From assembly GCA_022749845.1 (NCBI GenBank), contig JAKIWX010000007.1, positions 1-38,056 on the forward strand: a stretch of 38,056 nt of DNA, written 5' to 3'. The DNA is from Thermoplasmata archaeon. Lineage in GTDB: Archaea; Thermoplasmatota; Thermoplasmata; Lutacidiplasmatales; UBA184. The notes below the pieces were generated by a model that worked only from the letters and a program-made list of their open reading frames with translations, did no database searches and was not told the origin of the DNA. Position numbers and translations under genes: made by a program. This document shows positions 3,647 through 6,533 of the stretch, piece after piece (positions within the stretch are counted from its first letter, which is position 1; each line of letters opens with the position of its first letter).

Positions 3647-4342
3647 CTAGGTCGATGTCTCGGTGCGACCGGAGCCTCGGTCGAGTCGGTCCACCGACCT
3701 CGGTCGCCATAGTGCGGCGACAAGGCAAGCCCCGAGAGGAACCGCGGTCAGGTAGATCCATAGTCCTGAGTAGGTGGCCGAAAGGACCGCGGGTGCTAGC
3801 GTCCTCGCAGGGTTGAGGGAGCTCCCCGACCACGCTCCGATAAAGTACGTAGAGAGCCCCACGACAGCCGGCGGTAGCAGGACCCGCCACCGATGGCGTC
3901 CTTCACCCCGATCCGCGAGGAGGAACACTGCGCCGACGAGGGCGGCGGTGAAGGCGAGCTCTCCGACAAAAGCTCGTAAGATGTCGCCATGGGCCGGGAG
4001 CGTCGCCCCGAGGTGGGCAAAGTCCCCCACAGCTCCGAGCACCAACGCACTCCCGAGGAACGCTCCGGATATCTGAGCGACCAGGTAGAGGGGGACTTCC
4101 CGCCAAGCGATTCGACCGCTGAGAGCGAGCGCCAGTGTGACGACTGGGTTGAGATGGGCCCCCGAGAGATGTATGAACAGGAAGATGGGCACCAAGACGG
4201 CGAGAAACCAGGCCGAGGCCAACATCCACTGGGGGATTCCTCCGAACCGACCTCCAAGGACGATGCTCCCGGTGCCGATGCCGACGAGGAGTGCTGTCCC
4301 GGCAGCCTCGCCAGCGGCGCGGCTCGCGACGGAGTCGCTCAC
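3647..4342 (-). CDS. MIP-family channel (aquaporin/aquaglyceroporin) of an arsenic cassette
   Basis: This 231-residue protein has six hydrophobic spans and the two half-helix loops of the major intrinsic protein family. The first loop reads SGAHLNPVVT (N65-P66-V67) and the second SGSSLNPAR (N177-A179, with the selectivity-filter Arg at 180), so the first NPA is NPV. The GTG start at 4342 overlaps the arsC stop as GTGA; upstream in-frame codons would lie deep inside arsC. Known: MIP channels conduct As(OH)3, and Sinorhizobium meliloti couples AqpS with ArsC so that arsenite made inside flows out by the channel. No ArsB or Acr3 pump is seen here, so the same logic is likely. The family is certain, the substrate is inferred. 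Confidence 0.88.
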   Translation of the reverse strand: MSDSVASRAAGEAAGTALLVGIGTGSIVLGGRFGGIPQWMLASAWFLAVLVPIFLFIHLSGAHLNPVVTLALALSGRIAWREVPLYLVAQISGAFLGSALVLGAVGDFAHLGATLPAHGDILRAFVGELAFTAALVGAVFLLADRGEGRHRWRVLLPPAVVGLSTYFIGAWSGSSLNPARTLAPAVLSATYSGLWIYLTAVPLGACLVAALWRPRSVDRLDRGSGRTETST

Positions 4343-4788
4343 CTGGACTGGCGGTGAGGCATGTCGGCGGCTCGTCGATCCGAGAGGAGGAGTTCCGCTC
4401 TGAGTCCGCGGACGAGCGACACAAGGCGGTCGCGGACCCGACGGAAGCCCTCGTCGTCCAGCTTCGCAGGGTCCTCCAAGCTCCAGTCCCGAAGCTCCAG
4501 GGACTTGAGACGCGCAGGACAACTCGCGTCATCCAGGCAGCCCATCGTAACAAGGACCCGCGCCCGGTCCGTCAACTCCGGGGAGAGGTGCCTGGGGCGG
4601 TGCTCGGGGAGGGCGAGCTGGATCTCCTTGAGCATCGGACCGGTGCGCGGATTGGGAGCTGCAGCGGGCCTCGTTCCTGCGGAGGTCGCCCTCCAGTCGC
4701 CCGGCGGGTCGGCGTTGAACATCGACTCCGCCATGAGCGATCGGGCGGCGTTTTCCACGCAGATGAACACGACCAGCTTCTCTGCCAT
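4339..4788 (-). CDS. arsC: Arsenate reductase, thioredoxin-coupled LMW-phosphatase type
   Basis: The enzyme reduces arsenate to arsenite in the cytoplasm. The 149-residue protein starts with the C-x5-R phosphate loop CVENAARS (Cys10, Arg16). The relay cysteines follow in TMGCLDDASCP (Cys84 and Cys90), and the aspartate loop is DWSLEDPAK (Asp106). This three-cysteine pattern fits the thioredoxin-linked class. I placed the start at ATG 4788, six codons inside the longest frame, because it overlaps the stop of the upstream Cys-rich peptide as TGATG. It overlaps the aquaporin start by four bases. The three minus-strand genes therefore form one tightly coupled operon. Confidence 0.9.
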   Translation of the reverse strand: MAEKLVVFICVENAARSLMAESMFNADPPGDWRATSAGTRPAAAPNPRTGPMLKEIQLALPEHRPRHLSPELTDRARVLVTMGCLDDASCPARLKSLELRDWSLEDPAKLDDEGFRRVRDRLVSLVRGLRAELLLSDRRAADMPHRQSR

Positions 4789-4865
4789 CAGCAGCAGTCG
4801 TCGCAACAGTCAGGGCAGCAGGGCGGCGAACTGCAGCACGGCGCCCCATGGTAATCTTCGGGCAT
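4788..4865 (-). CDS. 25-residue peptide with four Cys-Cys pairs, first gene of the ars operon
   Basis: This short frame encodes 25 residues; 8 of the last 16 are cysteine, arranged as vicinal pairs at 10-11, 16-17, 20-21 and 24-25, spaced by Ser, Pro and Asp. The ATG at 4865 has the strongest ribosome-binding site I noticed in the window, GGAGGAGG at 4871-4878 with a 5-base spacer, and arsC has none of its own because its ATG overlaps this stop as TGATG. The peptide is therefore very likely translated and needed for arsC translation. Known: vicinal cysteines bind As(III), as in ArsD. Inferred: an arsenite or metal buffer, or a carrier to the channel; a regulatory leader peptide sensing cysteine or As(III) is the alternative. 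I know no named family for it. Confidence 0.75.
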   Translation of the reverse strand: MPEDYHGAPCCSSPPCCPDCCDDCC

Positions 4866-4870
4866 GGTAA

Positions 4871-4878
4871 CCTCCTCC
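4871..4878 (-). promoter_or_regulatory. Strong Shine-Dalgarno of the Cys-rich peptide
   Basis: On the minus strand GGAGGAGG ends five bases before the ATG at 4865. This is near-perfect complementarity to the 16S rRNA tail. It fixes the peptide's start and marks it as the ribosome entry point for the peptide-arsC-aquaporin operon. Confidence 0.75.
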
Positions 4879-4896
4879 ACTTCAATTGCTGAAGGA

Positions 4897-4904
4897 CTAA
4901 TAAC
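4897..4904 (+). promoter_or_regulatory. TATA-like box of the HxlR regulator
   Basis: An A/T-rich ctaataac is centred about 26 bp before the GTG at 4926, predicting a leaderless mRNA for the regulator. It lies in the 60-bp divergent gap shared with the ars operon, so a protein bound here could control both directions. Confidence 0.5.
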
Positions 4905-4925: not shown

Positions 4926-5252
4926 GTGTTGCAGAGTTGCGAAGGTAGCCTTGAATGTCCGTGCCCACCGATCGGGCTCATCGACGTGGTTGGGAAGAAG
5001 TGGGCGGTGTGCGTCGTCTCTCTGCTCGGAAAATATGGGACAGTACGGTTCGGGCCGATCCAGAGGTGCCTCTCGGGGGTCAGCCCGGCAACCTTGACCT
5101 CTACACTCCGGGCCCTTGAACGGGCACGCTTGGTCGATCGAAGGTCGGTGGACGGAGCGAGGGGCCCTGTCAGGGCGTACCTCCTGACGCCGGCAGGACT
5201 CAAGCTCTATCTGAGCCTCCTACCCCTGGCGAGCTGGTTGCAATCAAACTGA
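4926..5252 (+). CDS. HxlR-family winged-helix regulator, Cys-rich N-terminus
   Basis: This 108-residue DNA-binding protein has the HxlR pattern: an N-terminal CP element, VVGKKWAVCVVSLL, a helix-turn-helix around GVSPATLTSTLRALERARLV (51-70) and a wing ending in YLLTPAGLKL. The GTG at 4926 is chosen because a TATA-like box lies about 26 bp upstream. Cysteines at 5, 11, 13 and 29 are more numerous than the single conserved HxlR cysteine, and a C-x5-C-x-C cluster could bind As(III) or report thiol oxidation. It is divergent from the peptide-arsC-aquaporin operon, where an ArsR repressor would normally sit, so it is probably the arsenic sensor. The family is secure; the ligand is inferred. Confidence 0.85.
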   Translation: MLQSCEGSLECPCPPIGLIDVVGKKWAVCVVSLLGKYGTVRFGPIQRCLSGVSPATLTSTLRALERARLVDRRSVDGARGPVRAYLLTPAGLKLYLSLLPLASWLQSN

Positions 5253-5339: not shown

Positions 5340-5362
5340 TAGCCCCCGTCGGCTTCGAACCG
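5340..5362 (-). repeat. Degenerate tRNA-Gln 3' fragment abutting the tRNA
   Basis: These 23 bases match the adjoining 23 bases of the tRNA gene (5363-5385) at 19 positions, including the whole TTCGAA T-loop core and the terminal GGGGCTA. The copy is in direct tandem with the tRNA end. It looks like a diverged tRNA 3' end left or delivered by an integration event. It may be the true right end of the arsenic module. Confidence 0.65.
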
Positions 5363-5435
5363 TAGCCCCGAGCGGATTCGAACCGCTGTCGCCGGCTCCA
5401 AAGGCCAGCATGCTTGGCCACTACACCACGGGGCT
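5363..5435 (-). tRNA. tRNA-Gln (anticodon TTG)
   Basis: The 73 nt fold into a full cloverleaf. The acceptor AGCCCCG pairs with CGGGGCT, the D stem is GTGT/GCAT (two G-U pairs), the anticodon stem is CTGGC/GCCGG with loop CTTTGGA, and the T stem is AGCGG/CCGCT with loop TTCGAAT. Anticodon TTG reads CAA (Gln). CCA is not encoded. A TATA-like element at 5459-5467 is centred about 28 bp upstream of the 5' end, so the gene is intact and self-promoted. Its last 18 nt are the source of the direct repeats to the left. Confidence 0.95.
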
Positions 5436-5693: not shown

Positions 5694-6533
5694 GTGACCG
5701 GCGCGAGGCCTCGAGGACGAAAGCGGGCTCCCCCACGTCCAGTTCAACCTCCGCGAGGAGGTCGAAGAGAGTCCGATGCTGGACGCTGGGAGGGGTGGGT
5801 CGACTTGTGGGACCGGCAGCAGACCCGTTACATTCCTCATCGAGAGGCGCGGTTCGAGGCGATGTTCGATACCCTCGAGGCAAGATTTGGGGAACGGTTC
5901 ACGGTGGTCGATCTCGGCTGTGGGCCGGGGTCGCTGAGCTCGCGTCTCCTGGATCGCTTTCCGCTCGCGCGCGTCGTTGCCGTGGATTTCGACCCGGTTC
6001 TGTTGTTTCTCGGCCGACGGACCGTTCACGCTGGCCCCCGAAGGCTTACCTGGGTCGAGGCGGATCTTCGGGACCCGTCCTGGAGGAGCCAGCTGCCGGT
6101 CTCCCGTGCGGACGCCGTGGTTAGCACGACCGCGCTGCACTGGCTCCGGCCGCCCCGGCTTCGCTCGCTCTACAGGGAGCTCGCCCACCTACTGCGACGG
6201 GGCGATCTCTTCCTCGATGGAGATCACCGGGCGCTTCCCACCACCGTTCCGGAACTCGGGCGACTCGCCCACGACGCGAGCCGGATCGCGCGTCGGCGGC
6301 TTCGCGAGGCGGCCCCGGCTCCGAGCTGGGATGACTGGTGGGCCGAGCTCGAGAAGGAGCCCGAGCTGCGACCGCTGTTTGCGATACGCCGGGAGCGCTA
6401 TCCGGGCGGCAGCCACCACGAGCACACCGCCACAGTCGGCGCGCACCGGCGCTGGCTACGGGCGGCGGGGTTCCGGGAATCGGCCCCAGTGTGGCAACAG
6501 CTTGACGATTTCGTTCTCGCGGCCCTGCGTTAG
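5694..6533 (+). CDS. Class I SAM-dependent methyltransferase
   Basis: The 279-residue protein has a Rossmann-type methyltransferase core: motif I VVDLGCGPGS (71-80), a motif II acidic end in VVAVDFDPVLL, a motif III region ending in WVEADLRDP, and motif IV DAVVSTTALHWL, which resembles trans-aconitate-methyltransferase-like (Tam) proteins. The acceptor is unknown; a small acid or other metabolite is plausible. The C-terminal third is rich in Trp and Arg and includes GGSHHEHTATV, perhaps the substrate pocket. I took the GTG at 5694 because a TATA-like gctaagcc is centred about 25 bp upstream; later starts near 5800 would also keep the whole catalytic domain, so the first 30 or so residues (Arg/Pro-rich) are uncertain. 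Confidence 0.82.
   Translation: MTGARPRGRKRAPPRPVQPPRGGRRESDAGRWEGWVDLWDRQQTRYIPHREARFEAMFDTLEARFGERFTVVDLGCGPGSLSSRLLDRFPLARVVAVDFDPVLLFLGRRTVHAGPRRLTWVEADLRDPSWRSQLPVSRADAVVSTTALHWLRPPRLRSLYRELAHLLRRGDLFLDGDHRALPTTVPELGRLAHDASRIARRRLREAAPAPSWDDWWAELEKEPELRPLFAIRRERYPGGSHHEHTATVGAHRRWLRAAGFRESAPVWQQLDDFVLAALR

Follow-up and report, generated by a model that had tools for sequence, protein, structure and literature searches.

A cysteine-rich mini-protein ahead of arsC and a three-cysteine HxlR regulator in arsenic operons of Lutacidiplasmatales archaea

Several described systems resemble parts of the arsenic locus that we report here. The bacterial metallothioneins SmtA, PmtA and MymT are very small, cysteine-rich, proposed buffers of soft metals, the metallochaperone ArsD is proposed to carry As(III) on vicinal cysteines within ars operons, and the AqpS-ArsC system of Sinorhizobium meliloti is regulated by ArsR, not by an HxlR protein. 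PmtA is described as a small Cys-rich protein in the available portion of PMC11237414. In the accessible parts of PMC6205960 and PMC4435449, the S. meliloti ArsC is followed by a MIP channel, AqpS, that serves as the arsenite exit. CutF is a copper-responsive leader ORF, linked to the next gene by translation and proline-rich in its C-terminal part, and a comparable role has been proposed for CruR (PMC9973294, available sections). Finally, AIRAP, an arsenite-inducible animal protein, binds arsenite directly and may relay it (PMC8465394, in the part available).

The locus described here lies in a window of 38,056 nucleotides, the whole stretch of DNA that was analysed. On its minus strand an ATG to TGA frame (4788..4865, stop included) encodes a Cys-rich mini-protein of 25 residues, MPEDYHGAPCCSSPPCCPDCCDDCC, whose last 16 residues include eight cysteines, every one of them in one of four CC pairs. 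The Shine-Dalgarno-like stretch GGAGGAGG (4871..4878, minus strand) precedes it and is followed by TTACC and the ATG, a spacing of 5 bases. An alternative in-frame GTG is found at 4880; since this falls in the operator and Shine-Dalgarno stretch, the ATG at 4865 is the likelier start. The spacing pattern of the first three CC pairs occurs once in the 1.83-Mb genome. The preliminary description had reported this peptide, its CC pairs, a near-perfect Shine-Dalgarno at 5-base spacing and its position at the head of an arsenic operon. All of this agrees with our reading of the DNA, and the observation at this locus is real and not due to chance.

The peptide stop shares TGATG with the start of arsC (4339..4788, minus strand), which encodes an arsenate reductase of LMW-PTP fold (PF01451, LMWPc, E 3e-18). 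The GTG start of the next ORF in turn overlaps the arsC stop as GTGA, and its product is a MIP/aquaglyceroporin-like channel (3647..4342, minus strand; PF00230, E 7e-32). ArsC carries the P-loop Cys and Arg and two further redox cysteines, which mark it as thioredoxin type, a type whose Cys triad has a redox role; among 106 ArsC sequences Cys10 is kept in 104, Arg16 in 106, Cys84 in 102 and Cys90 in 105. The window ArsC scores below the NCBIfam equivalog cut-offs of TIGR02691 (46 bits against 174.25) and PRK13530 (58.8 against 215).

Divergent from these genes is an HxlR-family regulator (4926..5252, plus strand; PF01638, 51 bits against a gathering score of 20.8) with cysteines at positions 11, 13 and 29. 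The palindromic operator CTTCA-GCAAT-TGAAG(T) (4879..4894, minus strand) is conserved in relatives, CTTCA-N5-TGAAGT being a single site in the whole genome, and it is likely that the divergent HxlR controls it. Beside it lies the TATA-like stretch GTTATTAG (4895..4904, minus strand), of which relatives keep CTTATNA and which is probably the promoter. Unlike the peptides, the DNA of this control region is strongly conserved, with the consensus GTACGTAGcGGcggcTTAtgAgCaCTTCAg..aTTGAAGTG over 41 sites. The preliminary description did not include the three-Cys HxlR, the palindromic operator or the tie to a passive channel. Just past the HxlR gene is a tRNA-Gln (anticodon TTG; 5362-5435, minus strand), and a protein with a SAM-dependent methyltransferase domain is encoded near the ars genes (5694-6533, plus strand); the latter was not seen as a recurrent neighbour among relatives.

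How does the peptide compare with the systems above? Like the bacterial metallothioneins it is very small and Cys-rich, with a proposed role as a soft-metal buffer; unlike them it is archaeal, carries its cysteines in CC pairs and runs, sits in an ars operon under an HxlR regulator and has no Pfam or NCBIfam match. With ArsD it shares vicinal cysteines in an ars operon, but it is far smaller and without an ArsD match. The order of ArsC and then a MIP channel is that of AqpS-ArsC, although a term search of PMC6205960 and PMC4435449 found no Cys-rich peptide there. AIRAP is larger, a eukaryotic proteasome adaptor, and unrelated. The CutF and CruR ORFs are also small, contain cysteines, precede a metal gene and are linked to it by translation, whereas our peptide has no DUF2946 match and, judged by eye, lacks a signal peptide and is of cytoplasmic type. 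Although arsenic operons rank among the most thoroughly studied stress systems, no such peptide was found in the open-licence literature that we searched.

We surveyed 151 loci (the window's own, then 29, 41 and 80 further stretches), of which 110 have distinct arsC DNA. In choosing the 80 further stretches we passed over most matches weaker than about E 1e-20, and the sources of the surveyed loci include metagenome assemblies, a point against the explanation favoured below. The relatives that carry these loci are soil archaea of the Lutacidiplasmatales, and the ArsC relatives include that of Candidatus Lutacidiplasma silvani. The reference genome of this species is isolate AcS3-62 (our locus L033), and arsenic is not mentioned in the available portion of the main text of PMC9287336, which describes it. 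Of the 110 distinct loci, 49 have an HxlR in divergent orientation or, within 260 nt, the operator, and a peptide was called where at least 5 cysteines were encoded directly before arsC. The preliminary description had proposed a search for short CC-pair frames ahead of arsC, on the expectation that a genuine peptide keeps its Cys pairs where the surrounding DNA is conserved. This search bore the peptide out: it was found at 27 of the 49 HxlR/operator loci and at none of the 61 others, while 4 of the 49 have arsM first and 18 have neither. Cys content served to pick the peptides and so accounts for part of their richness, but it does not account for their restriction to HxlR/operator loci.

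The 27 peptides have 22-42 residues and 6-15 cysteines, the very small size and high Cys share of metallothioneins. They differ greatly in sequence, some having spaced CC pairs and others unbroken stretches of up to eight cysteines, and the N-terminus is mostly MPE, MSE or similar. The core C..CPGCCxxCC is common to 17 aligned rows, a chosen subset, often as CDPxxCPPGCCDxCC, and many peptides read C(C)DPxxCPPGCCDxCC. ATG-started short ORFs of 18-60 residues number 1621 in the 110 arsC loci; at least 6 cysteines are found in 29 of these, 26 of which share the strand of arsC and are no more than 200 nt upstream of it. As a DNA pattern, CDPxxCPPGCC occurs in 2 of 389 genomes of the phylum, both times at these loci. 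A profile built from 17 of 29 peptides, with the poly-Cys forms left out, matched known HxlR sites up to E 0.001 in 103 family genomes; weaker matches, from E 0.011 upwards, resemble background, apart from the window peptide, and since this itself scores only E 0.055 the profile misses divergent members. Taken as a whole, these peptides form a genuine gene family, small enough to be commonly overlooked by gene finders, within an HxlR-type arsenic module.

Some loci depart from the general pattern. At three of them (L052, L090 and L107) the slot between operator and arsC holds a short ORF with 0, 2 and 0 cysteines, respectively, as if the cysteines had been lost while the frame stayed. At L143 (G029:C4) and L142 (G028:C18) arsC lies in two overlapping pieces in different frames, and is therefore frameshifted or wrongly assembled; the Cys-rich peptide before the split arsC of L143 is intact. 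At L044, L094, L095 and L109 the slot, some 300-370 nt upstream of arsC, is occupied by an HgcC-like AbrB-domain protein with several CC pairs in its N-terminal tail, the one of L095 matching NF040962.

Selection appears to act on the cysteines themselves. In the closest pairs (12 non-overlapping pairs covering 24 of the 27 loci) the Cys columns hold 28 silent and 21 replacing differences and the other columns 47 and 70, a comparison that is inflated because alignments favour matches. Only one of the nine possible changes to a Cys codon is silent, so these numbers point to purifying selection. The other two frames of the peptide ORFs encode 19 and 2 cysteines and no CC, and in 20000 base shuffles of each of three ORFs the observed Cys count was never reached. 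We reject chance or a simple-repeat artefact: the runs of TGY are confined to the Cys frame and mix TGC (215) with TGT (61) codons, and the peptide tracks HxlR and the operator. Inheritance together with arsC is rejected too, as on an ArsC tree built from 106 of the 110 rows, without 4 short sequences, the peptide label has to change 17 times, with at least 5 of the changes forced. Searches with 6 of the 29 peptides yielded nothing in NCBIfam, whether from a described metallothionein family or any other, no ArsD match in Pfam or NCBIfam and no DUF2946 match; the one keratin-type match in Pfam (E 0.0017) was below cut-off and we ascribe it to composition. One peptide searched against the PDB gave a single match, at E 6. 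A RiPP precursor was dropped, as the recurrent neighbours listed included none that we recognised as an enzyme of maturation type.

The preliminary description also suggested that arsC depends on translation of the peptide. Such coupling is likely, judging from the DNA: the peptide stop overlaps the arsC start in 20 of 27 cases (10 as TGATG and 10 within GTGA or TTGA), and by a loose pattern a Shine-Dalgarno-like motif precedes 22 of the 27 peptides, but precedes arsC in just 3 of the 27 loci with a peptide, against 30 of the 83 without. Since the two genes overlap and the arsC motif is scarce behind the peptide, arsC is probably translated by ribosomes arriving from it. That said, the peptide does not always have arsC behind it. 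Scanning 103 family genomes for the operator with up to 3 mismatches gave 36 sites in 32 genomes; 34 of these, matched to known loci by contig and position, precede arsC, whether or not arsM intervenes. At each of the remaining two the peptide stands alone: in L032 (G078) HxlR and an operator are followed by the GTG-started VPQPSESAPGCRPSNCCCCCCCCCGTSCD, with a second operator before arsM-arsC-MIP, and in L185 (G067) an operator is followed by MPTTRGSDGRCDPSCCPPGCCDE and then an unrelated gene, which we take to be Ppx/GppA-like. Given these two genomes, in which the peptide stands alone under the operator, it would be a product in its own right and not only a leader, unlike an ORF of the CutF/CruR type that is always upstream of and coupled to the next gene. 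Folding of 6 of the 27 leader regions gave no RNA structure beyond that of shuffles (z-scores -0.89 to 1.59), a further difference from CutF and CruR. An RNA attenuator was rejected on this result; the stop/start overlap also leaves no room for an attenuation hairpin or terminator.

The peptide is also associated with the type of exit. Among the HxlR/operator loci with the peptide 24 have the passive MIP channel and 2 have the pump Acr3, against 6 and 11 without it (p 1.1e-4). The trend holds after clustering of ArsC at 75% (p 0.004) and 80% identity (p 0.001), and is gone at 65% and 70% (p 1), where few clusters remain. Across all loci whose exit was recognised, and with arsM counted as Cys-rich from the few N-termini read, a Cys-rich partner lies just upstream at 54 of 65 arsC-MIP loci (24 peptide, 26 arsM, 4 HgcC-like), 11 being without one, and at 11 of 26 arsC-Acr3 loci (2 peptide, 9 arsM). 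No peptide locus was found to have arsM within 1.5 kb upstream. AqpS is called bidirectional in the available part of PMC4435449, and brings sensitivity to outside arsenite according to that of PMC6205960. A thiol buffer beside a channel would make sense because arsenite passes the channel both ways, a weakness that a pump does not have.

The three cysteines of the regulator (Cys11, Cys13 and Cys29) are invariant in 39 of 39 homologues from arsC loci and could plausibly form a three-thiol As(III) site. Lying beside arsenic genes, the HxlR of the window and its homologues are candidates for a new type of arsenite sensor; our search of the open-licence literature found nothing relevant that ties HxlR to arsenic. 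Of 389 genomes of the phylum, 29 have a match to this HxlR, and we read 14 loci outside the family. The regulators with both CxC and WxxC lie opposite a small Cys-rich protein in 6 of 6 cases, against 1 of 8 for those without all three cysteines (p 0.0047), a grouping made by eye after seeing the data. The small Cys-rich proteins opposite three-Cys regulators are those of L229, L230, L232, L234, L236 and L238, from other Thermoplasmatota families, and several of the distant partners have a coiled-coil tail whose weak resemblance to DUF5320 stays under the cut-off of that family. The 14 distant stretches, read to about 1.5 kb on each side, gave no match to arsC, MIP, Acr3, arsM or arsR. Since no ars genes were found there, the small Cys-rich protein, and not arsC, looks like the older partner of HxlR.

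The explanation that we favour, with moderate confidence, is that the peptide is a metallothionein-like, As(III)-binding mini-protein of the HxlR regulon that buffers or carries the arsenite produced by ArsC. Arsenite, whether produced by ArsC or admitted by the channel, would bind the three cysteines of HxlR, which would then free the CTTCA-N5-TGAAG operator over the promoter. The CC-rich peptide would be the first product of the operon, and the same ribosomes would continue to arsC and the channel through the stop/start overlaps. The vicinal thiols of the peptide would capture As(III), so that little arsenite is free until it leaves by the passive MIP channel. The peptide would be useful and not essential: 18 of the 49 HxlR/operator loci do without it and so it is dispensable, three loci have the low-Cys ORFs and 11 MIP loci lack a Cys-rich partner.

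It is most likely that the peptide binds arsenite, and the main rival, which may hold at the same time, is a role as regulatory leader. The nascent Cys-rich chain would bind As(III), or stall for lack of Cys-tRNA, and so alter the progress of the ribosome, making arsC translation track metalloid or thiol status. We consider this unlikely, yet it keeps some weight, given the overlap at 20 of 27 loci, an arsC Shine-Dalgarno at just 3 of 27, and the runs of Cys codons. In 13 of 29 peptides the final Cys pairs come after PPG, which is known to slow translation, although poly-Cys forms without PPG are equally common. CutF likewise joins a metal-binding Cys motif to a proline-rich C-terminal stretch (PMC9973294, available sections). 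The low-Cys ORFs of L052, L090 and L107 would suit a leader whose cysteines are unimportant; a leader role fits poorly with the two stand-alone copies, the six unstructured leaders and the distant HxlRs opposite Cys-rich proteins that lead no ars gene. The preliminary description had offered both roles, arsenite buffer or carrier and sensing leader; binding and carrying emerge as the better supported, because of the stand-alone copies and the lack of leader RNA structure, and the sensing leader as the weaker part.

The thiols may instead serve other soft metals or redox stress, such as Cu(I), Hg(II) or disulfide stress, with the arsenic genes having joined the HxlR module later, as passengers. 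The distant HxlR/Cys-rich pairs without ars genes in the stretches read agree with this, as do the HgcC-like proteins, named for mercury methylation genes, in the same slot at 4 loci. The HxlR weakly resembles the redox regulators RrpA/RrpB, far below cut-off, and poly-Cys runs also bind Cu(I). We think this reading rather improbable, however, with 34 of 36 family operator sites upstream of arsC and the other two before stand-alone peptides. We give very little credence to the idea that the peptide replaces thioredoxin as the reductant that recycles the Cys84-Cys90 disulfide of ArsC. The apparent coupling to arsC and the three redox cysteines kept in nearly all 106 ArsC would be in keeping with it, but at 83 of 110 loci arsC is not preceded by a peptide, stand-alone copies exist, and CC runs are unlike the CxxC motif of thioredoxin.

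More tentatively, and with less than even confidence, we propose an arsenothionein family, made on the ribosome and binding arsenite, which together with the three-Cys HxlR as a new arsenite sensor would enable exit by a passive two-way channel; paired with further small Cys-rich proteins, this type of HxlR would then form a wider thiol-defence module of the Thermoplasmatota. The finding illustrates how a conserved component of a resistance operon can escape gene finding if it spans 22-42 codons and preserves little except its cysteines. If the peptide binds As(III), HxlR would join the regulator families that may sense arsenite, and the use of a passive channel as an exit would be explained. 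The peptide would then be an archaeal, ribosomal counterpart of phytochelatins, the thiol peptides of plants.
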